Shown here piece by piece: positions 7,798 to 47,408 of a stretch of 64,000 nt of DNA. The notes under the pieces are model-generated. The model saw only the letters and a list, made by a program, of their open reading frames with translations, ran no database searches and was not told the origin of the DNA. Origin of the DNA: a virus. Position numbers and translations under genes: made by a program. The stretch is from positions 1-64,000 of IMG/VR virus record IMGVR_UViG_3300037088_000361; one strand, written 5' to 3'. Numbering within the stretch: position 1 is the stretch's first letter; every line of letters begins with the position of its first letter.

Positions 7798-7812
7798 AGT
7801 TGTCTCCTCAGT

Positions 7813-9569: not shown

Positions 9570-9585
9570 ACAATGTCCTCCCATT

Positions 9586-9625
9586 TATAGTATACACTGG
9601 ACGGGGGGGAAATCAGGGATATTTT
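9586..9625 (-). promoter_or_regulatory. Promoter P4 of the recurrent phage promoter family
   Basis: A box reading AAAATATC (9618-9625) lies 21 nt before TGTATACTATA (9586-9596) on the minus strand, followed by a GGGAGG ribosome site. The box overlaps the end of the GIY-YIG/membrane gene. Confidence 0.72.
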
Positions 9626-10108: not shown

Positions 10109-10184
10109 TGGTTCCCGAGGGAGGACTCGAACCTCTCATCTTCACTTTCAAAGAGTGACGTGGCTACCGTTGCACCACTCGGGA
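10109..10184 (-). tRNA. tRNA-Gln (anticodon TTG)
   Basis: The minus strand folds into a cloverleaf. The acceptor TCCCGAG pairs with CTCGGGA, the anticodon stem is TCACT/AGTGA with loop CTTTGAA (anticodon TTG, U33 and A37 normal), and there is a T-arm TTCGAGT. The 3' CCA is encoded. One mismatch occurs in the T stem. Confidence 0.88.
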
Positions 10185-10191
10185 ACAATAT

Positions 10192-10264
10192 TGGCTCGGG
10201 AGGAAGGATTCAAACCCTCGTACAGGGGTCCAACCCCCCGGTCCTATCACTAGACGACTCCCGA
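10192..10264 (-). tRNA. tRNA, probably Pro (anticodon TGG)
   Basis: The acceptor TCGGGAG/CTCCCGA is perfect and CCA is encoded. The anticodon loop is best read as GTTGGAC, giving TGG with U33 and A37. The anticodon stem fits perfectly (CGGGG/CCCTG) only if one base of the six-base C run at 10234-10239 is removed, so a homopolymer error may be present. Isotype is therefore tentative; the gene itself is clear. Confidence 0.75.
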
Positions 10265-10450
10265 ACAACCTAAATCTTCATTGCTAAATACACTATTTTT
10301 GATGCGTTTTTCAACTATAAAACAAACCCATTACTCGGTTCATTAGGTTAAAACAAAAAATGGTGTCTCACACCTAGTACACTGGGTGAAACGCTTTTAA
10401 CACCTCACTAGCATAAAATAGATATGCAGTTCAATACTAGGAGGCAACTA

Positions 10451-11176
10451 ATGAAGGCATCACCAAAACTTATGGTCGCCATAATGCGTTCTGCTGCGGT
10501 AAACAAACAAAGAGCTATAGATGGCTACTTGTCCAACCCCAACCACTGTGAATTTTGTAGGGCTGTCATACCTCTAAAGCCAAACGCTACAAGGACTGTA
10601 TCGACCGCCCGCAGGCAGAAGTATTGCAATCATTCATGTGCAGCATCCGCCATTAACGCCAAGTATCATAAACGTAAACTAGAGGGTTCCTGCACCAAGT
10701 GCTCCGCACCTTGCCCAACTAACTACCAACACTGCAAAGACTGCATAGATAGGTACACTAAATCTAGCAGCGATATAAAAGGTCATAGTGAAGGCGGCAA
10801 GTCTCGCGGGACAACAGCGGTTATCAGCTATGTGTCCTATATTGAAAGCTGGCTAACCGGTGGTAAGTCGGGCATGAGTGGTACAACTAACATATCACGC
10901 CATATTAAACGCTGGTTACGCACCACACGTGGCAATGCCTGTGAGCATTGCGGTTGGTGCATGGTCAATCCAGTTACTAGAAGAGTTCCAGTAGAAGTCA
11001 ACCACATTGACGGCAACCATCAGAACTGCTGCCCAGAGAACTTAGAACTTATTTGCCCAAATTGCCACTCCCTGACATCAAACTTTCGTGCTTTGAACAA
11101 GGGCAATGGTAGAAAATCACGTCGTATTGGAGCAGGCGGTGAGAATCCAACTCACATACCTATTTTACAAGAATAG
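10451..11176 (+). CDS. HNH endonuclease inserted in the tRNA cluster
   Basis: This 241-residue plus-strand protein is surrounded by minus-strand tRNAs. It has paired-Cys sites (CEFC...CNHSC, CTKC...CKDC) in the first half. A C-terminal HNH domain follows: CEHCGW, then EVNHIDGNHQNCCPENLELICPNCHSL with the catalytic His pair and a closing CPNC. The ATG at 10451 is chosen for its AGGAGG at 8 nt; the upstream ATG at 10424 has none. The last 49 nt run antisense through tRNA-Thr(TGT), so the stop codon lies inside the tRNA gene. This fits a selfish homing nuclease that landed beside the tRNA. About 185 nt of A/T-rich sequence upstream probably holds its own promoter. Confidence 0.88.
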   Translation: MKASPKLMVAIMRSAAVNKQRAIDGYLSNPNHCEFCRAVIPLKPNATRTVSTARRQKYCNHSCAASAINAKYHKRKLEGSCTKCSAPCPTNYQHCKDCIDRYTKSSSDIKGHSEGGKSRGTTAVISYVSYIESWLTGGKSGMSGTTNISRHIKRWLRTTRGNACEHCGWCMVNPVTRRVPVEVNHIDGNHQNCCPENLELICPNCHSLTSNFRALNKGNGRKSRRIGAGGENPTHIPILQE

Positions 11177-11203
11177 GGTAATTGAGCATTATACGACGCC
11201 TGC
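11128..11203 (-). tRNA. tRNA-Thr (anticodon TGT)
   Basis: Acceptor GCAGGCG/CGCCTGC is perfect, the anticodon stem CTATT/AATAG closes loop CTTGTAA (anticodon TGT), the T stem GTGAG/CTCAC is intact and CCA is encoded. The antisense HNH gene ends inside it. Confidence 0.88.
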
Positions 11204-11209
11204 AAAATC

Positions 11210-11284
<75 letters not shown>

Positions 11285-11289
11285 AAAAA

Positions 11290-11365
11290 TGGAGCTGCTG
11301 GGGAGGATTCAACTCCCGACCCTCGCATTACGGGTGCGATGCTCTGGCAACTGAGCTACAGCAGC
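11290..11365 (-). tRNA. tRNA-Thr (anticodon CGT) with C33
   Basis: Every stem is perfect: acceptor GCTGCTG/CAGCAGC, D GCTC/GAGC, anticodon TCGCA/TGCGA and T GGGAG/CTCCC, with CCA encoded. The anticodon loop is CCCGTAA, so the anticodon is CGT but position 33 is C instead of the near-universal U. The HNH frame from 11966 terminates within this gene. Confidence 0.85.
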
Positions 11366-11966
11366 AAACTTGGTACGCCCGGAGGGATTCGGACCCGACC
11401 ATGACACCCCTATCGAGGGTGCATCCTGCCGTTAGATGACGGGCGCATAATCTCAATTCCTCATGAACCTCAAAATGACAGTTAGAACATAAGAGGTCAC
11501 ACTTATCAAGTTCTTTCTTTAGCCTTTCCCATGCCAACGACATCCTACCTGCGAGTGTGAACTCTTTCTTATTCGGGTCTAAATGATGAAACCCCAGAGC
11601 GTCTAAACACTTGCTATACCCACATCGCTGGCATTTACCGCCTCTGTACTCCAAGCACCGCTGTTTATTTTCGGTACGTTTTCTGTTAGCAAAACAAGAG
11701 TTACAGAAAGTCAACCCGTGACCTTTTTTCTTATCATAAATATAAATCCTTGAACAACGAGAGCAACTTATCTTGGGCATCTCCATCGTTCTGGCCACTG
11801 CAACCGTTACTATCTGCCCATCTTTTGTCTGCTTCAACTCCTTTGTGTTATGAGAACCGAAGGGAGAGCATTTAAGACAGTATTTACGATGTTGAAGGTT
11901 CTTTTGTTTACCGTCTACCCACATTTTATATGGTATTCTGGAATTGCATAACTCACAATTTCTCAT
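11328..11966 (-). CDS. HNH endonuclease reading into two tRNA genes
   Basis: The 212-residue frame has several zinc pairs (CELC, CLKC, CSRC, CNSC) and then an HNH domain: CLEYRGGKCQRCGY, ALGFHHLDPNKKEF with the His-His-Leu-Asp core, and closing CDLLCSNCHFEVHEE. Relatives normally end just after HEE. Here the frame has no stop and continues about 40 residues through tRNA-Ile and into tRNA-Thr(CGT) on the same strand. That extra tail is simply translated tRNA sequence. Either the native stop was lost, or a short readthrough tail is tolerated. It is the second HNH gene in this tRNA cluster, on the opposite strand from the first. Confidence 0.85.
   Translation of the reverse strand: MRNCELCNSRIPYKMWVDGKQKNLQHRKYCLKCSPFGSHNTKELKQTKDGQIVTVAVARTMEMPKISCSRCSRIYIYDKKKGHGLTFCNSCFANRKRTENKQRCLEYRGGKCQRCGYSKCLDALGFHHLDPNKKEFTLAGRMSLAWERLKKELDKCDLLCSNCHFEVHEELRLCARHLTAGCTLDRGVMVGSESLRAYQVCCCSSVARASHP
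11371..11446 (-). tRNA. tRNA, probably Ile (anticodon GAT) with C33
   Basis: Acceptor GCGCCCG/CGGGCGT (one G-U), D stem ATC/GAT, anticodon stem CACCC/GGGTG and encoded CCA define the gene. The loop TCGATAG gives anticodon GAT with purine 37 but C at position 33. Because position 33 is abnormal and the T stem is imperfect, the isotype is less certain than the gene. Confidence 0.75.
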
Positions 11967-12019: not shown

Positions 12020-12382
12020 CTACCCGCCCACAATCCTCTTAATCTCTTCTTCCGCCTTCACCCGAAACAGGTCAAAGTGCTGCTCAAATCCGCAAGGTGG
12101 GGCAACCCAAGTTGGCATAATCTCTACGCCCTCTGGGACTGTGTCATAGTCCCTCTCCCTCGGTACCGCACCTATGTCCCTCACGATATGGACAACCGCC
12201 GCTTTAGCTCCCTCGGGTCCAAATAACTCCTGTGCCTTCCTTACCCCGTTGGTGTGGTGCCGATAATGCCTGTGGGCGGCTCCCTTCCTCCAGAACAGCC
12301 TGTCCATCCATCGGTTTACCGCTTCGTGCCGGTCACCAAGGATGGTCTTGCAGTCAAGGCAATGTTGTTCAAACTTGGCCAT
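12020..12382 (-). CDS. Conserved phage protein with HH motif, DUF6915-like
   Basis: The 120-residue protein begins with CLDCKTILGDRHEAVNRWMDRL and has a His-rich centre (AAHRHYRHHTNGVRKAQELFG). It ends with AKAAVVHIVRDIGAVPRERDY. This order, a Trp-containing helix, then HRxxxHHxxG and a C-terminal HI-D-G-P segment, resembles small proteins of the DUF6915 kind, whose function is unknown; I hold the family name loosely. AGGGGAG precedes the ATG. The gene is the only one behind the structured leader RNA at 12.4-12.7 kb and its terminator, so its expression is probably controlled by attenuation. Confidence 0.75.
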   Translation of the reverse strand: MAKFEQHCLDCKTILGDRHEAVNRWMDRLFWRKGAAHRHYRHHTNGVRKAQELFGPEGAKAAVVHIVRDIGAVPRERDYDTVPEGVEIMPTWVAPPCGFEQHFDLFRVKAEEEIKRIVGG

Positions 12383-12391
12383 AACTCCCCT

Positions 12392-12423
12392 AAAAAACGA
12401 AAAAGCCGCCTTTCTGGCGGCTG
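12392..12423 (-). terminator. Rho-independent terminator within the leader
   Basis: On the minus strand GCCGCC-AGAAA-GGCGGC (12405-12421) is followed by TTTTT and, two bases later, TTTTTT. It sits only about 20 nt before the 120-aa gene start, the position expected of an attenuator rather than an end-of-operon terminator. Confidence 0.85.
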
Positions 12424-12666
12424 GAGAGTCTCAACTCGGATTTTATTATCCCGAGCAGGCTCCGCCGCCAGCCCAAATTTGGGTCTGCGTTTGTGTGTGC
12501 GGCATGGTGATGTTCATCATATTCAGTCTCTAGCGGGGGCAGTCGCTAAGCGTCCACCCCCGTTGATTTTTGACCCATGTTCTTGCCATCCTTGGGGAGT
12601 TCCCGAGGAGTTTACAGGTCAAGGGCTATAATGGGAGGGCGTCTCGGTGTTCCGTGAATCCCTCCC
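12414..12666 (-). ncRNA. Structured leader RNA with competing antiterminator helix
   Basis: This 320-nt space between genes holds no convincing long ORF but a series of helices on the minus strand. These are an 8-bp stem (12632-12639 with 12660-12667) capped by a CGG/CCG hairpin, a 6-bp CGGGGG/CCCCCG stem (12534-12562) with an inner CGCT/AGCG, the palindrome CCCAAATTTGGG (12472-12483), and a CTCGG/CCGAG hairpin (12435-12455). An 8-bp helix (12464-12471 with 12414-12421) shares bases with the terminator, so both cannot form. Two tiny frames (19 aa at 12530-12589, with two Trp; 24 aa at 12446-12520, QTQTQ) could be leader peptides. It is either a riboswitch-like or a peptide-attenuation device. 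Confidence 0.6.
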
Positions 12667-12669
12667 ACT

Positions 12670-12710
12670 CATATAATACCTCCGATAGTCATATTTTTCG
12701 GAAATATTTT
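12670..12710 (-). promoter_or_regulatory. Promoter of the leader RNA, variant of the recurrent family
   Basis: An AAAATATT box (12703-12710) is followed by 22 nt and GGTATTATATG (12670-12680) on the minus strand, matching the geometry of P1-P5 with TATTAT in place of TATACT. The expected start point falls at the first helix of the leader RNA. Confidence 0.6.
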
Positions 12711-13311
12711 ACACGCCACGCCGGAAAAGCATGTGCGGAATGGTGGCCATAACCAAGAGGGCGTCGTAAGCCAAGCTCCTGTTGCGCCTGTACCACCTGT
12801 GCAGCTTTACCTCGAACCTCCTCCCCAGCCGGTTCACCTTTTCCCGGCCGCAAAGTTGTGAAAGACCCGTCAGCCCCGGCATCATGTCCAAGGACTCCGT
12901 ATATCCAGGAATCCGCATGGCAAGGTGCTGGGCAAGGTTGAATTCCTCGGGGCGGGGACCAACGAGGCTCATGTCGCCTTTGAGGATGTTGAAAAGCTGC
13001 GGAAGCTCGTCCAAGTGGGTCGCCCGGAGGAACCTGCCGACCGAGGTGACTCTCGGGTCATCTCTGGTAACCAAATCAATGCTCTTGTTCGTCCCGACCT
13101 TCATGGTTCGGAACTTGTACATCGTGAACTCCCTTGCCTTCCATCCTATCCGTCTCTGCCGAAAGATGACGGAACCATCGGAGGTCAGCCATACGGCAAT
13201 GGATATGGCGATGAACAGCGGAAAGCTGAGAGCGAGGACGACAAGCGTCAGCGTTACATCAAACACCCGTTTGGTTTTGTAGTATATGGTGCTCATAGTC
13301 TCTTTATGCAT
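12709..13311 (-). CDS. Polyprenyl-phosphate sugar-1-phosphate transferase-like protein
   Basis: The 200-residue protein is the catalytic part of the bacterial sugar transferase family (Pfam PF02397, as in WcaJ or WbaP C-termini). It has one membrane helix near residues 20-45 ([22 protein letters not shown]), then [17 protein letters not shown], a [22 protein letters not shown]-type core and [11 protein letters not shown]. The family moves a sugar phosphate onto undecaprenyl phosphate to start surface glycan synthesis at the inner membrane. The long N-terminal membrane region of WcaJ is absent, as in the short monotopic type. Its ATG overlaps the upstream TAA (ATGCATAA); an ATG at 13296 is an alternative. 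In a phage it may alter the host envelope, for example to block superinfection. Confidence 0.88.
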
Positions 13312-13609
13312 GGCTGCCGATGAGGACGAACCCGCCACCTGGCAGGACGATACGGTCAACGGAACAGCAGCCGAAGGGGGTGCCTTCTTTAGCCCACATT
13401 GGCCAGTAGTCGGTGTTCTCCGAGGGGAACATGGCCAGCCAGTCCTCATCCCCCCCGTTTATGGAAAGATTCTGTAGCTCCTCCGGGGCGTCGTGGAAGC
13501 GCCAGATGAGTATAGGACGATACTTACCCCGCATATCCAAAGGATGGGTCGGGTTCCAACGAGAATAGTCAACCTGCTCTATAACGGGTGTTTGTGTATT
13601 ATTGTTCAT
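13304..13609 (-). CDS. Hypothetical protein coupled to the sugar transferase (101 aa)
   Basis: The protein is soluble and Trp-rich (RYSRWNPTH-like start, IWRFHDAPEELQNLS, WLAMFPSENTDYWPMW), with a C-terminal [21 protein letters not shown]. The pattern suggests a compact mixed fold with no catalytic motif I recognise. Its stop overlaps the sugar transferase start, so the two form a small operon and may act together. The ATG has no strong ribosome site close by, and a promoter-like TGTTATACTAA lies about 125 nt upstream. Confidence 0.65.
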   Translation of the reverse strand: MNNNTQTPVIEQVDYSRWNPTHPLDMRGKYRPILIWRFHDAPEELQNLSINGGDEDWLAMFPSENTDYWPMWAKEGTPFGCCSVDRIVLPGGGFVLIGSHA

Positions 13610-13731
13610 ATCAGGGAATACTAAGATTTACGAGGATTTACGAGACTTGGATGGGGGCTCGGCGAAGAAGAGGACTGCCGAGGAGAAGGCCTTGGTCGTT
13701 TCTCCTCGAAGAGTGAATCGCTTGCACCTGG

Positions 13732-13742
13732 TTAGTATAACA
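13732..13742 (-). promoter_or_regulatory. Possible extended -10 promoter element
   Basis: TGTTATACTAA on the minus strand resembles the TATACT core of P1-P5 and lies in the 233-nt gap before the 101-aa gene. The A/T-rich upstream box seen at P1-P5 is not evident, so this is only suggestive. The rest of the gap holds short direct repeats of TTTACGAG near 13627-13642 and no convincing gene. Confidence 0.35.
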
Positions 13743-13791
13743 CATCCTTGGGGGCAAGACACGCAATCCGTTGAATTTACCGTCAGAACAC

Positions 13792-13821
13792 AAAAGCCCA
13801 TTGTAGTCACCAATGGGCTTT
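13792..13821. terminator. Bidirectional terminator after the 651-aa gene
   Basis: GCCCATT (13796-13802) pairs with AATGGGC (13812-13818), extended by AA/TT, with a 9-nt loop. On the minus strand the stem is followed by TTTTG. It ends the long structural transcript just past the stop at 13843. Confidence 0.8.
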
Positions 13822-13842
13822 GTAATCAACAAATATAGAATC

Positions 13843-15798
13843 TTACTGATGCCAGAACATAGTAGGGTAATCCAACGCTTCATTCAGAGGAGCCGACCCA
13901 TGCAATGGTACTGTTGGGTCTAACCCCCAATCTACGGACCCGCCTCCCCTTAGGAATGTTTGAGTAGCTGCGTATTCTGTATCGTGTTCATCCTGGTACC
14001 CTTGCATTTGGACATTGACAGATGCATCATATGCCGCTTGCGCAGTTGCTTGCGCAGTTGCTTGCGAAGCTGCCTGAGCCGCCAGACTGGCCGTACCAGC
14101 CGCCACCACCGCTGCTTGGTTTAGCGTTGGAGGAGGGAGCGCAGTAGAGTCACTTGTGGTAATAGTGGGATATAGAGATGGGTCGATTTGGCTTGACATA
14201 GGAAGGTCAACAACACCAGCATCGTAAGGTGTACCCCCTGATTGTCCAAGTAATCCAGAACCAGAAGGAGAGTCTTGGTAAGTAGTACTAGGTTGTGTGA
14301 AAGCCCAATCTGATGGAACACCACCATAATTAAACGGTCCGCTATCATCCACAACTGATGCTGTTCCTGACACATTGATGTTCTGAACAGTGTTTGTAGG
14401 CTGCCCACCTTGTGCTACAAAAAGACCAGCATTTATGTATTCTTGTAGTGGTTTAGGGTTATCAGGCTCCCACAATGAGATGTTGGACATCCCAGATGGG
14501 GCTTTCCCTGGATTCCAAAAGATATTGTTGGAATCGGCTGACCCTCCGAAAGCTATAGGGTCTATGCCAGCAGCGGAACCACCCATGAAAGCACCAGTAG
14601 GGGCTAACTGCGGGATTTTGGTTCCAGTCAAAATAGACAATGGAGACCAATCCCATGTCACTGTAGGATTTGATGCAAGAGCCTCACCAGTGGAAACAAT
14701 ACCGAAATCTTGGTTTGAAACAGAGATTCTAGAAGGAGCTGACGCAGATGCCCAAGTTGGTGGTGGGGGCAGACTACCAGTGGTGGCGAAAGTGATTAAA
14801 TCACTTACGCCTTGGTAACCGGGGCTCTGTTGAAGAATACTATCACCCATATATTTCAGAATATTAGTAAAAGAGCCCCAAGTACTCGTTAGTGAGTTTT
14901 GCTGTGATATAACATTCGCCCCACCAACAGCAAACACACCTATGCCCAGAGCACCACCATACAGGGATGCATCTATAGCACTCCACCCATTCCCAGGCAA
15001 AGCTTCGAAGGTAATACCGCTAGCCTCATCCTGTATTCCGGCTGGTGTATAATCCTGAAACGTTTGACTTTCCCAAAATTGGACAACGCTTAGGTCAGTA
15101 GGTGCTAGGGGGCGAAGTTTGGCATACATCCCGGATTCAAAGTCTGGTAAGCTAGGATTACTTAATATACGCGTACCAGTTCCCATATCATCGGGGGCAA
15201 AAGTAAGCGTACCAGTTCCCACATCAGCGCTTGCCAGGTTAAGACTGTAACTATCTTGGGCACCGAGCTGCTCCCAACACCCTGTGAAGGGAGTGACCAT
15301 GTACCCATCTTCTTCGACCCAAAGACGCGTCAATATGTCTAGGAGACCCTCATCCGTGGGGGGCACCCTCGCAAGTAGGCTGCTAGGAGCACCGATGCTT
15401 TCCGATGCATAAATACCGGACCTATTGGGCATAACAGGACCAGTGTAGGGGTTTGCTGCCCCATAATCAGCCGCACTTTGCAAGTTTGCAGCAGAAAGGG
15501 AGTCGAGTGCGGCTGCTTCGGCTTGTGCAACGACGGCAGCATCGGCAGCTTTAGTATTTAAGTCATTTATCCATGCGTCAAAACTTGGCTGTCCGCTGGC
15601 TTGGAGGGCGTGGAATTGGTCTGGAGTTAAATCATATGCCTTCCCACTAAGACTTGTCACCGAATATGTGTGGTTTAGTATATTATAAATCCCCGAAACG
15701 GGCTGAGTAGCGACCTGCGAAGAAACATAGTTCCACGCATTACTAACCCAACCACCAATCACACCAGTACCTTGAAATGGTATTCTCCATCCAGGCAT
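13843..15798 (-). CDS. Large putative virion protein of unknown type (651 aa)
   Basis: The product is rich in Ser, Gly, Ala, Thr and Pro, with repeated low-complexity linkers and two Ala/Gln helices (residues 85-110, AADAAVVAQAEAAALDSL; and 570-600, a run of ATAQATAQAAYDAS-type sequence). Short conserved-looking pieces such as SGIYASESIGAPSSLL suggest an assembled surface protein. There is no signal peptide or known domain. It follows the six-paralogue array on the same strand, has AGGAG before its ATG, and is closed by a terminator, so it appears to be the last gene of that structural transcript. A head or tail decoration role is inference from context. Confidence 0.6.
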   Translation of the reverse strand: MPGWRIPFQGTGVIGGWVSNAWNYVSSQVATQPVSGIYNILNHTYSVTSLSGKAYDLTPDQFHALQASGQPSFDAWINDLNTKAADAAVVAQAEAAALDSLSAANLQSAADYGAANPYTGPVMPNRSGIYASESIGAPSSLLARVPPTDEGLLDILTRLWVEEDGYMVTPFTGCWEQLGAQDSYSLNLASADVGTGTLTFAPDDMGTGTRILSNPSLPDFESGMYAKLRPLAPTDLSVVQFWESQTFQDYTPAGIQDEASGITFEALPGNGWSAIDASLYGGALGIGVFAVGGANVISQQNSLTSTWGSFTNILKYMGDSILQQSPGYQGVSDLITFATTGSLPPPPTWASASAPSRISVSNQDFGIVSTGEALASNPTVTWDWSPLSILTGTKIPQLAPTGAFMGGSAAGIDPIAFGGSADSNNIFWNPGKAPSGMSNISLWEPDNPKPLQEYINAGLFVAQGGQPTNTVQNINVSGTASVVDDSGPFNYGGVPSDWAFTQPSTTYQDSPSGSGLLGQSGGTPYDAGVVDLPMSSQIDPSLYPTITTSDSTALPPPTLNQAAVVAAGTASLAAQAASQATAQATAQAAYDASVNVQMQGYQDEHDTEYAATQTFLRGGGSVDWGLDPTVPLHGSAPLNEALDYPTMFWHQ

Positions 15799-15845
15799 AG
15801 CATTACTCCTCTACTTCCCCCGTTACCCAACAATGCCACTTTGAA

Positions 15846-16355
15846 CTAGTTCTCCGTCACGAACACAGTCATGACAAACGGTCCGCTTATACATCCCCCG
15901 GCCACGTAGATATCCAAGCTGCCCTTGTCGTTGGCAGCCAAGTTCAGGGCGGTGATGTCCCCATCCTCAAACTCCGTTGCACCAACCGGGTTGCTGGCAT
16001 GAAGGAAGACCTCCTTGTCACTGACACCCATAGCTCCTGGGGTCAGCGCTCCAGTCTGGGAATAGCTAGCGGTAAACAAAGGGGTGGGCACGGGGTCGAG
16101 CGTCAGTGGAACCAGCACAGCGGGGGAAGATGCCGTCGTGACCACCGTCCCGCCTGAGGTACTTGTCTCAAAGCGCCTGACAACAAGAATGTATAAACCA
16201 TAAGTGTTGTTTACGTTGTTGTCTAGTTTTATGCCACGAATGCTCAGAGCCCTAGCCCCCGCCTTGATGGAAAAAAACGGAAGGTACAGAAAAGTAGTAA
16301 CACTTGTGGTGCTCCACGGAGTGGCCTGTTGCGAACGAATTGCGTATGTGTACAT
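15846..16355 (-). CDS. Paralogue 1 of six: MYTY-family beta-rich protein (169 aa)
   Basis: The protein is one of six consecutive relatives that share an order of short motifs: MYTYAIR at the start, KAGARALSIRGIKLD, a strand ending LYILVVRR, a TLDPVPTPLFTASYSQTGALT segment, then DKGSLDIYVAGG and a terminal VFVTEN. The spacing is consistent with one beta-sandwich domain. GGAGG lies 8 nt before the ATG. No signal peptide, catalytic residues or named family are seen. Position among virion genes suggests a surface or decoration protein, but this is inferred from context only. It is the last and one of the short members of the array. Confidence 0.75.
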   Translation of the reverse strand: MYTYAIRSQQATPWSTTSVTTFLYLPFFSIKAGARALSIRGIKLDNNVNNTYGLYILVVRRFETSTSGGTVVTTASSPAVLVPLTLDPVPTPLFTASYSQTGALTPGAMGVSDKEVFLHASNPVGATEFEDGDITALNLAANDKGSLDIYVAGGCISGPFVMTVFVTEN

Positions 16356-16381
16356 ATCAACTTCCTCCTTATTTGGTCAGC

Positions 16382-16975
16382 TTACCGCCTACTACGGCCA
16401 CTGCTCTTGTAAGAACTTGTATTTCTCCCAGCAACGTCGAAATTTCTCCTGAAAGGGTTCTCCTCAACAAACAAGGTTAGAACTGTGGCAGTGCTTGCGG
16501 TAGGGGAAGCTATCTGTACGTCTACGCATCCGTGGTCATAGGCAGAAAGAGCCAGACCGTCGGCGCTTCCAAGCTCCCATTCCGTGCTTCCGATGTTTCC
16601 GCTGAGCGATATCAGCGTCTCCATGTCCGTGTGTGCCTTGACTATGGAGCCCCAAGACCCAGGACCATAGATGGTGAACAAAGGGGCTGCGGCGGTATCC
16701 AGCGTAAAGGGCAGCACGCTGGCAGAAGGGAGGGAGGTAACCCCCGGTTGATAAAGGTAGGCATTGCTTGAGGTTATGCTCATGCCACGACGGGTCAACA
16801 AAAGGTAGATTTGAGGTTGCCCGTAGACCCAGTCAACCTTAATGCCTCGTATTCGCACTGCCCTGCCGCCAGGAACCAAAGAAAGGACTGGAGCCCACAT
16901 AGTGGCAGCATTAGGCGGGTTGGCAAGTGCCGTGCCGGGTGAGGTAACCGATGTGCGTACAGCGTAAGTATACAT
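16382..16975 (-). CDS. Paralogue 2 of six, with C-terminal extension (197 aa)
   Basis: Family motifs are MYTYAVRT, VPGGRAVRIRGIKVD, IYLLLTRR, AAPLFTIYGP, GCVDVQIA and LFVEEN. After the shared domain it continues with NPFRRNFDVAGRNTSSYKSS and a basic end, an extension shared only with paralogue 4 (NPFRTRYDLAGSRTDALKSG). The GSLDIYV motif is altered here to GCVDVQI. The ATG at 16975 is preferred, with CGGAGGG just upstream; the longer frame overlaps the previous gene. The basic tail might contact nucleic acid or a virion partner. Function is unknown. Confidence 0.75.
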   Translation of the reverse strand: MYTYAVRTSVTSPGTALANPPNAATMWAPVLSLVPGGRAVRIRGIKVDWVYGQPQIYLLLTRRGMSITSSNAYLYQPGVTSLPSASVLPFTLDTAAAPLFTIYGPGSWGSIVKAHTDMETLISLSGNIGSTEWELGSADGLALSAYDHGCVDVQIASPTASTATVLTLFVEENPFRRNFDVAGRNTSSYKSSGRSRR

Positions 16976-16985
16976 ATTCCCTCCG

Positions 16986-17459
16986 TTAGTTCTCCACGAC
17001 AAATGCGTTAAAATTAAAACCCTGACTGACCTGCGAGGCAGCCACGTAGATATCCAAGCTACCTGGGTCGTTGGCCGGGAGAATCAGATTTCCGCCATCC
17101 ACCCATTCGGTCTGTCCTACACTACCGCCAGCCATCCGTAGCGCTTCAAAATCAGCAAGTGACCGTGTTACTGTAAGGGCACCGGAGGCCGACCAAATAG
17201 CACTGAACTGTGGGTTAGAAGTAGCGTCAGTTGTAAGGAACAAGGGCGGTACAGCAGCCCCGCCTGTGGTATAAGCACCCACCCGACGTACTACGATAAT
17301 ATAGTAGGCTACCGTAGCGTAGACGTAAATTGGAATCTTTAGACCCATTAAAGTAACGTCGTGGTTCCCTGCCTTAACAGAAAGGTGGGGTCCACTAAGC
17401 CAAGCATTTGCCGTGGCTGATGTTGAACCACCAGTGCAATAAAGGTTATATGTGTACAT
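16986..17459 (-). CDS. Paralogue 3 of six (157 aa)
   Basis: Family motifs are MYTYNLYC, KAGNHDVTLMGLKIP, YYIIVVRR, NPQFSAIWSASGALTV, DPGSLDIYVAAS and a terminal AFVVEN. It is a short member without the C-terminal extension and closely follows the layout of paralogue 1. The ATG at 17459 has GAGGAG upstream and lies 1 nt after the stop of paralogue 4, so translation is probably coupled. The sequence between the motifs is strongly diverged from its neighbours, including in the loop before the VVRR strand. No function can be assigned. Confidence 0.75.
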   Translation of the reverse strand: MYTYNLYCTGGSTSATANAWLSGPHLSVKAGNHDVTLMGLKIPIYVYATVAYYIIVVRRVGAYTTGGAAVPPLFLTTDATSNPQFSAIWSASGALTVTRSLADFEALRMAGGSVGQTEWVDGGNLILPANDPGSLDIYVAASQVSQGFNFNAFVVEN

Positions 17460-17460
17460 G

Positions 17461-18024
17461 CTATCTCCTCTGAACAATGCCACTCTTCAGGGCATCGGTC
17501 CTTGAACCAGCCAAGTCGTACCTTGTGCGGAACGGGTTTTCCTCAATTAAGACTTCCAAGTATTGGACTATAGCACCGGCATTCGGCGTTGCCATATAAA
17601 TATCCAGACTCCCCAAGTCGTAGGCGGGCATCGCCAAATTGGTGATGTCACCGTCGTCCCATTCCGTAAGACCGATGGTCCCGCCCGCCTCAAAGTAAAC
17701 CTCTTCGTCGGAAGGTGATGCGGTGACGCTCATGTTAGCACCATCAAGGGAGTAAAGGCTGATGAACTGTGGGCTGGGACCGGGGGCAGCGTTGTCCAAG
17801 GTCATTGCAAAAGGTGTGGCGACACCCCCACCTGTAGAAGCGATAGCTCTGCGCACGACAAGAACAAAAACAGGGTAGGTAGCACCCGTGCCACCCAAGC
17901 TATCAAACTTTACTCCACGCAAGCGGATTGCACGGGAGCCCGGTTTGATGGACCCAATGGGTCCCTTCCACGTGTTTGCCACGAATGTCGTGTTTGCTTG
18001 TAATCCTAGTTTGAATGTATACAT
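17461..18024 (-). CDS. Paralogue 4 of six, with C-terminal extension (187 aa)
   Basis: Family motifs are MYTFKLG, KPGSRAIRLRGVKFD, VFVLVVRR, SPQFISLYSLDGANMSV, DLGSLDIYMAT and VLIEEN. Like paralogue 2 it continues with an NPFR...D-L-AG...KSG...RR tail of about 25 residues. AGGAGACGAGA precedes the ATG. The alternation of short and extended members suggests that a two-gene unit was duplicated. No catalytic motif or membrane segment is seen. Confidence 0.75.
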   Translation of the reverse strand: MYTFKLGLQANTTFVANTWKGPIGSIKPGSRAIRLRGVKFDSLGGTGATYPVFVLVVRRAIASTGGGVATPFAMTLDNAAPGPSPQFISLYSLDGANMSVTASPSDEEVYFEAGGTIGLTEWDDGDITNLAMPAYDLGSLDIYMATPNAGAIVQYLEVLIEENPFRTRYDLAGSRTDALKSGIVQRR

Positions 18025-18067
18025 TCTCGTCTCCTATTGCCCAAAATCCCACTGCTGATTACTGAGC

Positions 18068-18523
18068 TTACTCCACCACGATTACATTCATCTTGAAGCT
18101 TGAGCTAGCTGTGGGGGAAGTCACATACACATCCAAACTTCCTTGGTAATTAGCAGGCAATATTAAGCCTGACATGCTCTCCCTCCACTCCGGCTGTCCG
18201 GTGACGCCACCGGTCGCATGGTAGACTTCCTTGTCGGTATACCCATTGGTCGCTGTCAAAGCCCCCGAAGCTGAGTACACAGCGGCAAATAAGGGAGTGG
18301 GGGCATCCAATGTGAGGGCGACCGGCGAGGTAGTGGTCCCCGTCGTAAAGGCACATCCACGGCGAATCGCCAAGATGTACAATTGCACGTTCGGGTCAAA
18401 GGCGATGTCCACTATGGCAATGGGCTTCGCACCCGGTTTAATGGAGAAGAAGGGGAGAAACCGATTGACCGTAGACGACGTAGTATTGCTGAGAGAGCGG
18501 AAGATATAATTGTACACTGTCAT
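18068..18523 (-). CDS. Paralogue 5 of six (151 aa)
   Basis: The shortest member begins MTVYNYIFRS and contains KPGAKPIAIVDIAFD, LYILAIRR, TPLFAAVYSASGALTA, YQGSLDVYVTS and a final VIVVE. The central segment is close to those of paralogues 1 and 3, supporting common descent. AAAGGAG directly precedes the ATG. No other feature distinguishes its role. Confidence 0.75.
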   Translation of the reverse strand: MTVYNYIFRSLSNTTSSTVNRFLPFFSIKPGAKPIAIVDIAFDPNVQLYILAIRRGCAFTTGTTTSPVALTLDAPTPLFAAVYSASGALTATNGYTDKEVYHATGGVTGQPEWRESMSGLILPANYQGSLDVYVTSPTASSSFKMNVIVVE

Positions 18524-18529
18524 TCTCCT

Positions 18530-19444
18530 TTAGTTGGATTGCTCCGCAACAATAATGTATAACGGGAGAATCAAACCTGATGAACCTGGGGTCATTACTG
18601 AGATGTCAAGGCTTCCTCGGTCGTTACGGTCAAGACTTGCAGAACCTTTAGCGGCCACCCACTGGTCCACACCCAAGCTTCCGCTTGTCATAGTGATTAC
18701 TTCCTGGTCGCTATTCGAGGGATAAGTGGTAAGAAAACCAGTCTGTCCGTTAATGTAGTCAAAGGCACAGGTAAAGCCAGGGGCTGGGGCTTTGGCTGAT
18801 AGTGGAGTGATTGTCGGGTGACCGGCTGGTCCGCTCCAAGCACCCATACCACCTTGCCAGCCCGCCACACCACTACCATTGTAGTAAGTGTAGCACCCCA
18901 TATAAATGTAGCCAGGCTTGCCTATATACTGTGTGTCATTGAGAGAGCATTGGCTGGAAAGAAGAGTACCTTCACCTACTAAGCTGGAGTCAAATATCGT
19001 CACATACCAAGTTGAAGAAACTCCTGCAGCGGGCATGGTAACCGGCCAACTCGTGCGTCCATTGGCTGTTGATTTGTAAGTAAGAGGTCCCCAATTTGGT
19101 CCCGACACCAACACATTTGTTCCCGACTGGGATAATCCAAGGTGAGTGCTATCTACTGCATACACAGCGTTTGGATAGTTAACCCCCCCGATAGAAACAA
19201 CATAGGGGCTGTTAATGTTAGCTCCCCATGATGTGGCTTTTGCTCCTCTTCGGGTAATAAGAGTGTAAATAGGATAATCGCATGCCCCAAACTTCAGGGA
19301 CTTGATGGTTACCGGACGTGCTCCGCCGTGAAGAGTAAAGAGTGTATTCCAAACATTCCCAGTTGGTTGGGTTGGAGGAGTTCCTTTGTTATAAGACAAA
19401 CTAGGTCCTATTCCAGGAAACTGTACTGCATAAGTGTACTCCAT
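18530..19444 (-). CDS. Paralogue 6 of six, with large insertion (304 aa)
   Basis: The first-transcribed member starts MEYTYAVQFPG at 19444, where CGGAGG lies 9 nt upstream; the longer frame is rejected. It keeps GGARPVTIKSLKFG, IYTLITRR, DRGSLDISVM and a terminal IIVAEQSN. Between the RR strand and the C-terminal half it carries about 140 extra residues rich in Gly, Thr, Tyr and Ser (for example TYYNGSGVAGWQGG). This could be an exposed loop or an inserted domain such as a sugar-binding patch. It heads the array behind a leader with a GCAA-tetraloop hairpin at 19462-19479. Confidence 0.72.
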   Translation of the reverse strand: MEYTYAVQFPGIGPSLSYNKGTPPTQPTGNVWNTLFTLHGGARPVTIKSLKFGACDYPIYTLITRRGAKATSWGANINSPYVVSIGGVNYPNAVYAVDSTHLGLSQSGTNVLVSGPNWGPLTYKSTANGRTSWPVTMPAAGVSSTWYVTIFDSSLVGEGTLLSSQCSLNDTQYIGKPGYIYMGCYTYYNGSGVAGWQGGMGAWSGPAGHPTITPLSAKAPAPGFTCAFDYINGQTGFLTTYPSNSDQEVITMTSGSLGVDQWVAAKGSASLDRNDRGSLDISVMTPGSSGLILPLYIIVAEQSN

Positions 19445-19610
19445 GAAAAGCCTCCGTGAGCAGCAACCTTGCGGCTGCTTGCTTGTCTTTGTCCCTTGCC
19501 CGGTCAGTATGGCGCATCCCGAATAGGGGCAGGTCCCGTTGGGATAAAATATCAAATCCCCTCATTCCGCCAGAACCATCAATGACCTGAGGGTTTACTT
19601 CTCCCCTCAT
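19401..19610 (-). CDS. Doubtful small ORF in the leader of the paralogue array (69 aa)
   Basis: An ATG at 19610 opens a frame with a plausible charged middle (MRGFDILSQRDLPLFG, then TDRARDKDKQAAARLLLTEA) that overlaps the start of paralogue 6 by 44 nt. It lacks a clear ribosome site. The 234-nt gap otherwise holds only the hairpin at 19462-19479, so this stretch may be an untranslated leader instead. Confidence 0.3.
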   Translation of the reverse strand: MRGEVNPQVIDGSGGMRGFDILSQRDLPLFGMRHTDRARDKDKQAAARLLLTEAFHGVHLCSTVSWNRT

Positions 19611-19678
19611 ATAGGGAAACCGTAGTTAAAGTTTTGGGTTGGGGAATTATTGTCTAGAAGGAGTGGGAAGTCCTAGCC

Positions 19679-20767
19679 TTAACGCTTCACATATCCAGTA
19701 CATTCGGGGTGGTCCGAGCATTGACCATACATCTTGAAACCGTTATCGTCATAGCCTTTGCGATGGTTTACTTGGTCGCAGCCACACTGGCAACGGTAGC
19801 TCTCGTCAACCTCGGCGATTGCCCGCTTGGCGTCGTCGTCGGCGGGGATGACATCTACGCCTTGGCACATGAACTTACCGATGGGGGTACTGAACGTATC
19901 GCCGTCCTTAAGGTTGTCGTTGGTCTGGAACTCAGCATAGAGTTCCCGATAGAGTTGTTCGGCAAGGTCAAGGTTCTTGGCGTCGTGGTGGACATTGAGC
20001 CATGAGTCGGAAGTCTTTACCGTGGGGGGACCATCTGCGGCCTCTCCCAGTTCCTCGCCTTGAAGACCAACGATATACCAGAATCCGTCTTCTTTCCTTT
20101 GCACGGGATAATCCCTCGGGGCGGCGGAAACGGCCGCAGCCTGCTTAGCGATGGCGGAAGCGGGTTTTTGTATCCGACTATCGTTGGACCTCCCGGTCCG
20201 GGGTTCAACATCAGGGTTTCCTATATAATACGACTCCCTATACTGGCTAGGAATTAGCATGACATCCTCTTGGAACACCTTACGTCCTCGTGGATACTGC
20301 TCGTTCTTGACGGTCACGCAGAACCCCCAAGGTTTGAAGTAATGCAGACCCTCAACCACTACCGCTTCCATATAAATGCCGAGGTCTCGTTCGAGGACGA
20401 TGATTTTCTCCCCAACCTTGGGGACCCATTCATCGGTAGGTAACGCTTTGGGCTCCACATCTGGCTCGGAGCCATAATCACGACGCTTTGAGGAGCCTGC
20501 TATCCCCACATCCTTCATGAACGCTTGGTCCTCGGGGCTGCTGAGGTCGGGGAGGTTGGGACCGTCCCCCGCCTTGGCGGGGTCGATGAGGTAGCCCTCG
20601 TATTTGATGGCCCAGTCCACCGAGCTTGAGACATGGTCGTGGAGCCACTTGAAGCAGTCGTTATGGGACATCGGCTCCGTGAGGGTCTTTCCGTCCTTCT
20701 TGACGACATGCAAGGAAGTCTCGGTGCTATTCAGGAAGGCGGACTTGAACGGACTGGGGCTGGACAT
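19679..20767 (-). CDS. Hypothetical protein with C-terminal zinc cluster (362 aa)
   Basis: The N-terminal 80 residues are helical (SHNDCFKWLHDHVSSSVDWAIKY). A beta-rich middle follows at 110-185 (VGEKIIVLERDLGIYMEAVVV, a barrel-like segment), then a low-complexity linker near 200-225. The C-terminus has CQCGCDQVNHRKG and QCSDHPEC, a probable zinc site resembling those of other small phage proteins in this window. There is no signal peptide. I cannot assign a function; it lies between the paralogue array and the deoxyribosyltransferase-like gene and is separated from both by short gaps. Confidence 0.65.
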   Translation of the reverse strand: MSSPSPFKSAFLNSTETSLHVVKKDGKTLTEPMSHNDCFKWLHDHVSSSVDWAIKYEGYLIDPAKAGDGPNLPDLSSPEDQAFMKDVGIAGSSKRRDYGSEPDVEPKALPTDEWVPKVGEKIIVLERDLGIYMEAVVVEGLHYFKPWGFCVTVKNEQYPRGRKVFQEDVMLIPSQYRESYYIGNPDVEPRTGRSNDSRIQKPASAIAKQAAAVSAAPRDYPVQRKEDGFWYIVGLQGEELGEAADGPPTVKTSDSWLNVHHDAKNLDLAEQLYRELYAEFQTNDNLKDGDTFSTPIGKFMCQGVDVIPADDDAKRAIAEVDESYRCQCGCDQVNHRKGYDDNGFKMYGQCSDHPECTGYVKR

Positions 20768-21896: not shown

Positions 21897-22403
21897 TTAT
21901 GGGGATTTTATCTTGATGCCGTAGTCCGGGGTCAGATTCTCAATGCTGGGGAAGTTTTGGAAGATGGGAATGGCAATGCGGAAGTTGCCCTTGAACTTTA
22001 CCCACCACCCCTTCAAGGCGTCATAACTGGCGCTATCTAGGACCATGTTTCCCGTGGACTCAGGAGGCTCCGGGGGAGGAGGGATGAGATTGTAGGTACG
22101 CCCGAGGAAATAGGAAGCATTGTAGGGAGGGTCCACGAACTGCGCCCATTCAAGGCACTTATCTTTATATGGAGCGAGGAAGTTCATGAAGAGGCTGGTA
22201 GAGCTAAGCGAGCCGACATCCACCATCCCGGCTCCCCATGGGGAGTAGGTCATCTGGAATAAGTTCTGACCGAAGAAGGTGGTGGTCTGAACCTCCATGC
22301 GGATGAAGCTCACGGACAGGATTACACGGTAGCCGGTGCTAACGATGCCCCCGGCGAACTCCTGCCATGGACCGAGCTTGAGTGCCAAGACTTTGCCGGG
22401 CAT
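21897..22403 (-). CDS. Hypothetical protein, possibly virion-associated (168 aa)
   Basis: The mainly beta protein has strands such as STGYRVILSVSFIRMEVQTTTF, a Pro-rich linker (LIPPPPEPPES near residues 105-115) and a C-terminal WWVKFKGNFRIAIPIFQNF. It starts in a TAATG overlap with the 84-aa gene and has GAGGAG upstream. There is no signal peptide or known domain. A promoter-like TATTAT lies just after its stop, where the next gene begins. Placement at the end of the tail-gene string makes a structural or chaperone role possible, but not demonstrated. Confidence 0.6.
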   Translation of the reverse strand: MPGKVLALKLGPWQEFAGGIVSTGYRVILSVSFIRMEVQTTTFFGQNLFQMTYSPWGAGMVDVGSLSSTSLFMNFLAPYKDKCLEWAQFVDPPYNASYFLGRTYNLIPPPPEPPESTGNMVLDSASYDALKGWWVKFKGNFRIAIPIFQNFPSIENLTPDYGIKIKSP

Positions 22404-22657
22404 TACATCTCCTCGGGAAGCCTACTGCCGAGCAGGGATTCTCTAACAATTTGAAAAGCATCAACCTTGGCTTCCCACTCTATCTTATTGCCAGCGATTG
22501 CTACTGGAGTAGTGAGATGAAAACGGAAGTTCTCAATGATATGGTCAAGAAATTCCGCACAGCGGGTTCGGTCGGATGGGTCTTTGAGCAACGTCTCGTT
22601 AGGAAACGGATGCTTTCTGTTTTTCTTGAATTCGTCCCACGAGGTATTCAGATTCAT
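22403..22657 (-). CDS. Small hypothetical protein (84 aa)
   Basis: The protein is soluble and helical (MNLNTSWDEFKKNRKHPFPNE, then TRCAEFLDHIIENFRFHL, ending ESLLGSRLPEEM). The start at 22657 is chosen over a GTG 6 nt further upstream because of its ATG; its ribosome site is weak. It is coupled to the 168-aa gene by a TAATG overlap. No domain is recognised. Confidence 0.55.
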   Translation of the reverse strand: MNLNTSWDEFKKNRKHPFPNETLLKDPSDRTRCAEFLDHIIENFRFHLTTPVAIAGNKIEWEAKVDAFQIVRESLLGSRLPEEM

Positions 22658-22672
22658 AAGCACCTATGTTAA

Positions 22673-23374
22673 CTAAAATTGTAATATCCAACTGAATATA
22701 ATATCTATTCCAGGAGGTAATAAAAGTGGGGGTAGGGTCTTGTAGTTGCAAAGCACTACCGTCTGCTGGCTTGCTTTCACTGTGGCATAACTTGACGGGT
22801 TTCCGTTGAAATAGGGTGCCGTCAGCATCGTGTAAGGTCCCATATCAGCAATTCCCCCGCCGATGAGCCCCATCTCCCTGACCGCCTGCGTGATGTTGTT
22901 GGTGGTGCTGTTAACCGTGGTCTGGAACTCCACGTTCTGGGAGAGGACGGCGACGGCATTCCAGTTGCCACTATTATCCTGCGTGACGAAGTTGACCCTC
23001 GAAAGCTGGACACGGACGAGGGGTTGTATAAGCTCCACCTGCGCTGCCGTCTCGACCGGCTGGGTGGTCGGTGCCCATGTAGGGCTTCCCGCCCCTAGAG
23101 CAAGCCCCCAGATGCCCCAGGCAGGCTCCGTAGCGGGGATGCTGACGGACTGGACCTGCGGCGGGGAGAGGCTAAGCGGGCTGGCACACGCCAAGAACTG
23201 TGCAAAAAGCCATGAAGATACACTCGTGATGATATTGTGGTCCTCGTAGAGGGCTTCTCCAGTGTCCTTCCGATAGATACGGATTGCCCCGTGCCGGATG
23301 GGGTTGGGAATCTTCTCCGACCCGTTCACCTTAAACAGCGTTGGCTGTGACATTACCTGAATCCTGTTTTCCAT
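22673..23374 (-). CDS. Putative virion structural protein (233 aa)
   Basis: The N-terminus (KIPNPIRHGAIRIYRKDTGEALYEDHNIITSVSSWLFAQF) resembles the opening of phage fibre or capsid-associated proteins, in which a short strand and a D-H-N-I/V turn precede a helix. The rest is beta-rich with an Asn/Thr-rich segment (TTVNSTTNNITQAVREMGLIGG), also typical of tail fibre proteins. GAGAGGAAAAGG precedes the ATG. It overlaps the end of the Nudix-fusion gene by 44 nt, so the two are coupled. A tail or neck role is inferred. Confidence 0.6.
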   Translation of the reverse strand: MENRIQVMSQPTLFKVNGSEKIPNPIRHGAIRIYRKDTGEALYEDHNIITSVSSWLFAQFLACASPLSLSPPQVQSVSIPATEPAWGIWGLALGAGSPTWAPTTQPVETAAQVELIQPLVRVQLSRVNFVTQDNSGNWNAVAVLSQNVEFQTTVNSTTNNITQAVREMGLIGGGIADMGPYTMLTAPYFNGNPSSYATVKASQQTVVLCNYKTLPPLLLPPGIDIIFSWILQF

Positions 23375-25775
23375 TGCCTTTTCCTCTCCCTGCTCGATTG
23401 CAAATCTGCTGGATAATCTTTCCTGACTTCTGAAACAGAAGGATAACCCCTCGGTGGAAGTCGTGTGGGCTATCCTTTATTTGCTGTTGCACTTCCTCAA
23501 AGGTCATCCACTCAATAGCCTCGGTCTCCCAAGCATGGTCTTCCTGTGGATTAAAACCAAACTCCGTGGGTACTTCCCCCAAGAAATTAAAATATTTGAA
23601 TCGCCCTCTATCATTGAACACATAGGCAGGATGCAAGGAAATACCCCCAGTGTATCCCGTCTCTTCCTGCAACTCTTCTTGCGCACTTTCCTTTGGTTGC
23701 ATCCCCCTTTTTACGGCTCCGCCGATTGTACCGAAACAGCTTCCCTCATTCACATGGGGACTTCTCCAAGCAAGGCAAACTCTTCCAGTAGTCATGCATA
23801 TGGGAAGTATGCCGCTGGCAGCATTGCCCTCTCCCACCCAGTATCCCTCGGCGTTGGTGTAGTCTGCCCTTACCGCCTTCTCCAAGGGCACAGGAGTGGA
23901 GCCGGGTTCCCTGACCATAAGCCTTCCATGTCCTCCTAGCTCAGGGTGGTTGGCGTAGTAGTCGTCCTGCGCCCCGTGCGCCCATGCTATCATCTCGTCC
24001 TCCCGAAGGAAGCGTCCCACCTTCTCGATTCCCCACAGGCTGGCCACCTTGGACTCGTCCCCCTCCAGTATGGCCATCTCCTTCTCAAGCTCCTTCTTTC
24101 GCCCCATGGGGTCCTTCCAGAGCTTGTACCCGCTGTCGGTCTTCCCTCCGGGGTTGCCGCCCTCCGTGTCGCCGTGAAGCTCGTGGGCGATGCCGAGGGC
24201 ACACTGGCGGAGGTCGTCGGGGATGTCGGAGCCGTGGGTCATGAGGAATATGACCACGGCGAGGTAATCCTGCTTGGCGTCCGGGGTGCCGAGGTCCATG
24301 GAGTTAAGCTCGGCTACGAGGTCAGGAAGCTGGTCTTCCGGCACCGGCTCGTCGAACCCGAGTTGTGACTCGTCGCCCTTTGGTCGATAGCGGTCTAGGA
24401 TGTCATGGGCGCTGTCGTCGTCGTAGGAGCGCAGCCCCCACTGACCGGCACGCTTGTCCCGGCGCATGACCGCCGCAGCATAGGCGTCCACGCTCCACTG
24501 GATTTTTGCCTTCACGACCTCGGGGGTGACCTCATCGATGCCGAGGACGAGCGTGGAGGGGTTGTGGGGGGTGTTGAAATACACGAGGTCCATGTCCCCC
24601 ACGCCTATGAACTTTCCTCCCCCCGCCGTGACGGCGTCGATGACCCTCTGCACGTCTTCCGGCATCACGCTTCCCTTCTTTTTGTACTGCATCTTAAGAA
24701 GCTCATTGTGGAATCCAGGTCCCAACGACAAGGTGCCCTTGGGCCTGCCCATGTTGTCGTAGACCACCAGGTAGAGCGGGAAGGGCTGGCTCTTGATGCT
24801 CTGGAAGCGGTACCGCTTGATTGCCTTGAGGACATCGTTCTTGGAGGGGGAGAGCGGGCGCTCCGGGACGAACTCCATCCGGCGCTGCTTTGGCATCCGC
24901 CTTATCTGCTTCGCCGAGGCAGTCTTGTCAGCCAAAGAAGCCAAGCCCCTTTGCAAGTCTCCTAAAGTTCCCTCGCCATGTCCCAGATGGCGTCCAGTAA
25001 TTGAGCGTACATCCCACCAGATACGGGGTTCATTCTTGCAGAACCTAGCGACCTCCGTCATCTGCTCACTGGTGGGGAGATTGATAAAATCAACCTCTCT
25101 CGGGCTAACCACTCGTACAACCGGACCATAGCTAAACAACTCCTGTTCCCCACCCACGGCTTGTGCTACCATAGGATGTCCGGTCGCAGACTCTTCGACA
25201 TCATACATCACGTCTAAGTCGTGTTTTGCCATAATCCAAGTCCCATCGGACATTATCATCTTGCCGTCAAAGGAATCATTGACAGGATGACCACGGGGAA
25301 CTACCAGCATCCCTAGTATCTTGGAGACAGACTTCAAGAACGCTTTTAGACTTGAGTCTGCCGCCGTCACGACGCACTTCTGGGTCTCGTTGATGAACTC
25401 GGGGGGCAGCGGGAACTCCCCACGGACGGAGCCGACAGTGGGGTCCTTCTCTCGGTCTTCCGGGCGGTCGTTGGCGGTCATCCCCTTGTAGCAGTCGAGG
25501 GCGAGGGCGTAGACCTTGGCGATGACTTCCTTCTTGTACCCGGTGCTTACCATGAACGCCGCCATCTCGTCCAGCATGACCCCCAGAGCCTCGCTGGTCA
25601 CCTGCCGGAACTCCAAGGGGTCGTTGGAGGAAATGGGAAATTTTATGGAAAATACGGTAAACTTGGGTATTCCGAGGTCAAGGACGATGGAGGCAGTGGG
25701 CTGCAAGGACCGGACCGCTGTTATCTCCAGTGTCCCAGTCGAAGGAGACAAGTATGCCTGCTTTACAGTGCTCAT
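23331..25775 (-). CDS. 814-aa protein with C-terminal Nudix-like domain
   Basis: About 580 N-terminal residues match nothing I recognise. They include a region with conserved-looking DGKMIMSDGTWIMAKHDLDVMYDVEE and a long charged helix (DPMGRKKELEKEMAILEG). The last 180 residues are Nudix-like: LPICMTTGRVCLAWRSP, then GGAVKRGMQPKESAQEELQEETGYTG, and a closing segment ending in WMTFEEVQQQ. The Nudix box has the GxxxxxE-like start and EEtG end, but the usual REL arginine is Glu (QEELQEE). Nudix enzymes hydrolyse nucleoside diphosphates linked to another group. Such a large N-terminal fusion is unusual and suggests a virion-borne or DNA-associated enzyme. Confidence 0.75.
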   Translation of the reverse strand: MSTVKQAYLSPSTGTLEITAVRSLQPTASIVLDLGIPKFTVFSIKFPISSNDPLEFRQVTSEALGVMLDEMAAFMVSTGYKKEVIAKVYALALDCYKGMTANDRPEDREKDPTVGSVRGEFPLPPEFINETQKCVVTAADSSLKAFLKSVSKILGMLVVPRGHPVNDSFDGKMIMSDGTWIMAKHDLDVMYDVEESATGHPMVAQAVGGEQELFSYGPVVRVVSPREVDFINLPTSEQMTEVARFCKNEPRIWWDVRSITGRHLGHGEGTLGDLQRGLASLADKTASAKQIRRMPKQRRMEFVPERPLSPSKNDVLKAIKRYRFQSIKSQPFPLYLVVYDNMGRPKGTLSLGPGFHNELLKMQYKKKGSVMPEDVQRVIDAVTAGGGKFIGVGDMDLVYFNTPHNPSTLVLGIDEVTPEVVKAKIQWSVDAYAAAVMRRDKRAGQWGLRSYDDDSAHDILDRYRPKGDESQLGFDEPVPEDQLPDLVAELNSMDLGTPDAKQDYLAVVIFLMTHGSDIPDDLRQCALGIAHELHGDTEGGNPGGKTDSGYKLWKDPMGRKKELEKEMAILEGDESKVASLWGIEKVGRFLREDEMIAWAHGAQDDYYANHPELGGHGRLMVREPGSTPVPLEKAVRADYTNAEGYWVGEGNAASGILPICMTTGRVCLAWRSPHVNEGSCFGTIGGAVKRGMQPKESAQEELQEETGYTGGISLHPAYVFNDRGRFKYFNFLGEVPTEFGFNPQEDHAWETEAIEWMTFEEVQQQIKDSPHDFHRGVILLFQKSGKIIQQICNRAGRGKGNGKQDSGNVTANAV

Positions 25776-47385: not shown

Positions 47386-47408
47386 AGTATCTCCTGTGAG
47401 TTTAGGAT

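Follow-up and report, generated by a model that had tools for sequence, protein, structure and literature searches.

The stretch of DNA analysed here (the window) comprises the first 64,000 nt, or half, of an IMG/VR record of 127,843 bases (IMGVR_UViG_3300037088_000361). Its minus strand carries an array of six adjacent genes, named g6 to g1 from the first gene of the operon onwards. All six are open over the coordinates given in the first-pass annotation, and each is preceded by a good ribosome-binding site (Table 1). For g1 to g4 and g6, the upper coordinates in the table are refined starts (16355, 16975, 17459, 18024 and 19444, respectively). For g5, a GTG codon at 18517 is the more likely start, because it stands 7 nt after an AGGAG sequence, to which the possible alternative ATG at 18523 is too near. 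The start of g3 lies 1 nt past the stop codon of g4 and its ribosome-binding site falls within the end of g4, suggesting that the two genes are probably translationally coupled.

Table 1. Array genes, signals and neighbouring features, listed from upstream to downstream with respect to the array (positions in the window)
Feature	Coordinates	Strand	Description
Weak tape-measure match	61146	same as array	upstream of array
He_PIG protein	33422–39481	same as array	upstream of array; 2019 aa, six Ig-like He_PIG domains
Baseplate J	27437–31933	same as array	upstream of array
Weak BW3TFN match	22673–23374	same as array	upstream of array; PF25691, E 7e-4, below cut-off
Upstream anchor gene	19679–20767	−	outside module; 46–79% identity in L010, L013, L021–L023
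Leader before g6	19445–19678	−	234 nt
g6	18530–19444	−	304 aa, operon's first gene; GGAGG 6 nt before ATG; leave-one-out HMM 63.6 bits, E 5e-17
g5	18068–18517	−	149 aa, most compact member; leave-one-out 124 bits
g4	17461–18024	−	187 aa, family domain and 24-aa basic C-terminal tail; leave-one-out 117 bits
g3	16986–17459	−	157 aa; leave-one-out 123 bits
g2	16382–16975	−	197 aa, C-terminal tail as in g4; leave-one-out 105 bits
g1	15846–16355	−	169 aa; leave-one-out 143 bits
Seventh gene	13843–15798	−	651 aa, Ala/Ser/Thr/Gln-rich; 47 nt after g1
Intrinsic terminator	13793–13821	−	11-bp stem; RNA folding energy −22.3 kcal/mol, z −4.75; all shuffles less stable
Downstream anchor gene	12020–12382	−	outside module; 64–82% identity; DUF6915 (PF21866) match below cut-off

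The operon most likely extends from 19444 to 13843 and comprises the six paralogues and the gene for the 651-aa protein, because this seventh gene follows g1 after a short gap and is itself followed by a strong terminator. All seven genes lie on the same strand, with spacings of 1–47 nt and a ribosome-binding site before each, and the only strong terminator stands past the seventh. The leader upstream of g6 is the probable site of the operon promoter; no convincing promoter was found within it, and no late-promoter motif is shared upstream of the minus-strand genes. The 651-aa protein has no homologue in Pfam, PHROGs, NCBIfam, PADLOC, the phage records or the IMG/VR pattern scans.

The six proteins are clearly related to one another. 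Leave-one-out profiles recovered every member (64–143 bits, E 1e-17 to 1e-41), and pairwise BLASTP among g1 to g5 gave E values of 1e-8 to 1e-27 at 29–44% identity. The largest member, g6, is weak in pairwise BLASTP (E 6e-4 to 0.04) but clear by the leave-one-out profile. Its loop joining predicted strands 4 and 5 spans 159 aa, compared with 25–38 in the other five, an excess of about 125 residues. Among the short members, g2 is the most divergent. A basic tail of 24 residues (NPFR..[FY]D[VL]AG...RR) is common to the C-termini of g2 and g4 and occurs nowhere else on the contig. All six proteins start directly with the first strand, with no leader, signal peptide or anchor.

The first-pass annotation had described a common order of short motifs, and the A3 alignment indeed places invariant residues near them (Y2, G29, R52-R53, T58, P65, P75, F77, D95, E97, G107, G126 and D129 in g5 numbering). 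The wording of the motifs holds less generally: GSLDIYV is replaced by GCVDVQI in g2, GSLDVYV in g5 and GSLDISV in g6, and g2 has only a degraded form of the TPLF..SGALT segment. Synonymous sites are saturated in all 15 pairs, with codon identity at identical amino acids equal to the codon-usage expectation (z −1.3 to 1.8). The same pairs show no general signal of gene conversion, the sole hint being six identical codons shared by g1 and g3 (SLDIYV). The copies are therefore ancient, and selection at the protein level has maintained them, as the annotation had proposed and as the retained protein identity also indicates. The order of duplication cannot be read from the six-row tree, which has no supported branch; a series of pair duplications is one conceivable origin of the alternating tailed and untailed genes.

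None of the six proteins matched an entry above cut-off in Pfam, PHROGs, NCBIfam or PADLOC. The best PHROG scores were E 0.083 (phrog_31965, with one of the six proteins as query) and E 0.021 (phrog_3398, against a made-up consensus). No match was found among PDB sequences, and tblastn with five members, together with a DNA search, revealed no accepted relative in 50,697 phage records. One candidate from tblastn with g5, the annotated virion protein gp577 of Atu_ph07 (E 0.4), reached only 1.3 bits on the family profile and was rejected as a chance match. Pattern scans of IMG/VR and GTDB genomes, using two alignments and one member, also yielded no relative, although these scans rest on few short degenerate peptides, would miss distant kin and do not prove absence. 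A profile search detected none in 392 genomes of one bacterial phylum, reached via a locus titled Planctomycetota. The profile likewise found no further member elsewhere on the 127.8-kb contig or on relatives of 104 kb and 127 kb, and among all the databases and relatives searched no second phage carries the family. The earlier impression that no named family shows this pattern thus stood up to the curated collections, where the profile matched no characterised family, and at the level of sequence the six-protein family is a new orphan.

AlphaFold2 models built from the six sequences gave eight strands for both g1 (pLDDT 64.6, pTM 0.69) and g5 (pLDDT 72.2, pTM 0.71). These two models, of moderate confidence and not of unrelated folds, agree with the proposal of a single beta-rich domain with variable loops. 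A structure search of BFVD with the g1 model returned ten matches at E ≤ 1e-3, mostly unnamed tailed-phage proteins (probability 0.99–1.00, TM about 0.4–0.5). The list of matches includes proteins of Citrobacter phage CVT22, HRTV-4 and Streptomyces phage Coruscant. Foldseek matches in the PDB were weak, the best at E 2e-3 and 1e-2. They are mainly viral single jelly-roll capsid and TNF/C1q-like proteins, which share the eight strands and the two-sheet sandwich; with TM ≤ 0.36, 6–15% identity and no E value below 1e-3, these matches are not evidence of kinship. The six proteins are probably jelly-roll-like eight-stranded beta-sandwiches, an assignment moderately supported by the models.

In the canonical jelly roll, the BC, DE and HI loops lie at one end of the sandwich. 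With the strands lettered from B to I, identity among the predicted loops is lowest in BC, DE and HI (14–22%) and highest in CD and GH (40–43%). Each domain would therefore have one variable and one conserved face, insofar as the moderate models assign the strands correctly. Strand 8, too, is poorly conserved (18%), and this simple picture of a variable face does not account for the conserved start of EF.

The closest instructive comparison is phrog_5335, a small phage protein or domain of unknown function with relatives in 188 phage records. The CVT22 protein AJT60729 (gene 22386–22910), to which the structure match was tied by its length of 174 aa, matches the g1 model with a BFVD probability of 1.00, TM 0.51 and E 7e-3 (query pLDDT 64.6). 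The two groups also share a G-rich turn past a similar strand (TYTGG/STSGG). In Vibrio phage 1.087.A, phrog_5335 forms the C-terminal domain of a protein of about 280 aa encoded two genes past Baseplate J, and in PS15B.3 it occupies the same part of a similarly long protein at the homologous position. In Escherichia phage C1, it is the second gene past the coat gene, from which a single small gene separates it. Phages carrying phrog_5335 usually have one copy, in contrast to the six found here, and it lacks the RR and GSLDIYV signatures. A single hhalign comparison gave no sequence or profile link to the family (probability ≤ 0.15%, E 0.39). The comparison shows that domains of similar predicted fold serve at virion gene positions, and does not imply kinship with phrog_5335.

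The source virus, as judged from its genes, is a myophage of jumbo type and a relative of Tunturiibacter phage Tunturi_5. The Baseplate J protein shares 43% identity over 82% of its length with the Tunturi_5 baseplate wedge protein, and 60–70% with its counterparts on five IMG/VR contigs. Three of these contigs (L021–L023) are near-identical, so that the five count as about three independent lineages. Tunturi_5, a jumbo myophage of Acidobacteriota with a 309-kb (308.7-kb) genome (PMC11924767), infects soil Acidobacteria and is the sole isolated relative identified. Although it is the closest isolated relative of the array-bearing phage by the baseplate wedge protein, a profile search revealed that the family is absent from its whole genome.

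The array borders the downstream end of a tail and baseplate block and shares its strand. This same-strand position beside tail and baseplate genes is the one looked for in receptor-binding or tail fibre proteins. Between the last baseplate-like gene and the array stand the upstream anchor gene and three genes that have no structural match. The PF25691 match (BW3TFN, baseplate wedge 3/tail fibre network component) belongs to the nearby gene 22673–23374 and not to the six proteins. In the same block, the large He_PIG protein is 73–74% identical in the relatives and is likely to be a conserved tail or fibre protein. The baseplate block also encodes, at 23331–25775, a protein of 814 aa whose C-terminal domain is of the NUDIX type (PF00293); in Tunturi_5, a large NUDIX protein adjoins the portal gene.

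The interval 12020–20767 proved to be a variable cargo site bounded by two anchor genes, and its contents differ across the five related contigs. All five retain the upstream anchor; four also have the DUF6915 anchor, and the fifth contig (L021) ends before its position. In the array-bearing phage, the anchors enclose the seven-gene operon, a gene for a 101-aa protein and a sugar transferase gene. One relative (G002) has a 123-aa gene, a homologue of the 101-aa gene and a transferase gene, starting only 30 nt past the upstream anchor; a second (G001) has about 0.5 kb between the anchors, and a third (G003) a different ORF of about 303 aa. The seven-gene operon is thus absent from the corresponding site in all five relatives, although the flanking genes are present. 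GC3 of the module is 0.38–0.64, compared with 0.65–0.73 for most surrounding core genes, with a few exceptions; the value of 0.38, the lowest among the genes measured, belongs to the seventh gene. The simplest reading is that the operon was recently acquired as a unit, with loss in the relatives as the alternative. Because the relatives fill this site differently, the operon is an accessory module rather than a core virion component of the lineage. The earlier placement of the array among virion genes therefore needs qualification: it does lie near tail and baseplate genes, but at their downstream edge and within a variable site.

The sugar transferase encoded at 12709–13296 is of the bacterial type (PF02397, E 2.5e-56), has a 75% identical homologue in G002 and might act on sugars of the host surface. 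The best matches of the protein come mainly from Lachnospiraceae, at 36–46% identity, and are uninformative as a clue to the host.

Our preferred explanation, which we regard as evenly balanced between right and wrong, is that the six proteins are accessory virion-surface proteins, serving in adhesion or decoration, with variable loops and carried on an acquired seven-gene operon. We infer the location on the virion, the adhesion role and the partnership with the 651-aa protein. The operon would have been gained at the variable site just downstream of the tail and baseplate genes, and all seven products would be late virion-surface accessories. The six domains might mount on the tail and baseplate or on the head surface, with the conserved face, the 651-aa protein or, in g2 and g4, the basic tail as the point of attachment. 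The predicted BC, DE and HI loops, together with the insertion in g6, would bind cell-surface or environmental polysaccharides, and the conserved face (CD, GH, RR and the D/E residues) would make a common contact.

Another possibility, somewhat unlikely in our judgement, would be an accessory operon that acts inside the cell rather than in the virion, in host takeover, superinfection exclusion, counter-defence or a sugar-related function. Cargo-site operons near late genes can be non-virion, and the operon has its own leader and terminator, an unusual GC3 and a site adjoining the sugar transferase gene and other non-structural genes. However, six small beta-sandwiches would be unusual for such a system, and their fold neighbours are mainly phage proteins. 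The absence of a signal peptide-like start, of an enzyme-like motif conserved across all six and of any PADLOC match also argues against an intracellular role.

Rather unlikely, too, is the view that the six are inert decoration or cement subunits of the head or tail, each with its own lattice position or joined in a hetero-oligomer, so that the paralogy would reflect stoichiometry and not diversity of binding. Compact domains of 149–197 aa without a separate anchor domain would suit such a role, and all copies have been kept with a conserved core. Viral capsid jelly rolls are among the fold neighbours, and phrog_5335 in Escherichia phage C1 is one gene away from the coat gene. Against this view, the operon is dispensable in the lineage, as its absence from the relatives indicates, and a binding role is suggested by the large g6 insertion and by the three variable loops.

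Variation of one receptor-binding gene by a diversity-generating or cassette-shuffling system would explain tandem variants with variable loops, but is highly improbable: the 127.8-kb contig, itself a fragment, contains no reverse transcriptase (RVT_1), no long repeats occur within 13.2–20.0 kb, there is no gene-conversion signal beyond the one 6-codon run of g1 and g3, and each copy has its own start, ribosome-binding site and stop. Chance or low-complexity similarity of unrelated ORFs, for which nothing speaks beyond a Ser/Thr content of 16–21%, is refuted by the leave-one-out values, the ordered invariant residues and the ribosome-binding site at each gene.

A bolder form of the preferred virion-surface explanation, which we consider quite unlikely, is a self-contained, transferable and previously undescribed organelle of the virion surface, made up of the 651-aa protein and the six paralogues. 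It would be a hetero-oligomer in which six non-identical jelly-roll subunits sit on one scaffold, and jumbo phages would swap it as a unit via the variable site. We found no precedent in the literature for tandem paralogous jelly-roll virion genes. The tail whiskers of phage CBB are extra jumbo-phage surface structures with a proposed host-contact role, whose genes have not been identified (PMC5259590). Accessory structures of this type resemble the proposed module in being extra, lineage-specific surface parts for which host contact has been suggested. If the operon is a virion-surface module, a jumbo phage could gain a whole binding or decoration set in one step, leaving its core fibres unaltered. 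Through the variable site of the relatives, phages that have the module can be compared directly with phages that lack it, and the link of accessory surface proteins to the host range of soil phages can thus be tested.

Elsewhere on the contig, the motif GTGTATACTATAA occurs at 2052–2064, 7812–7824 and 9585–9597 on the minus strand and at contig position 65589 on the plus strand, three times exactly and once with one mismatch. Allowing up to two mismatches, the window contains five matches against 0.6 expected. The motif was not seen at structural genes or at the array; in three of the four places, it ends directly at a start codon (genes 1074–2051, 8976–9584 and the gene at contig position 65602), and it may be a phage promoter whose transcripts are nearly leaderless. 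Homing endonuclease-like genes of the HNH and GIY-YIG types are scattered through the window (46618–47538, 11328–11966 and 2080–3291). Five tRNA genes cluster at 10109–11365, including three Thr genes that differ in anticodon.
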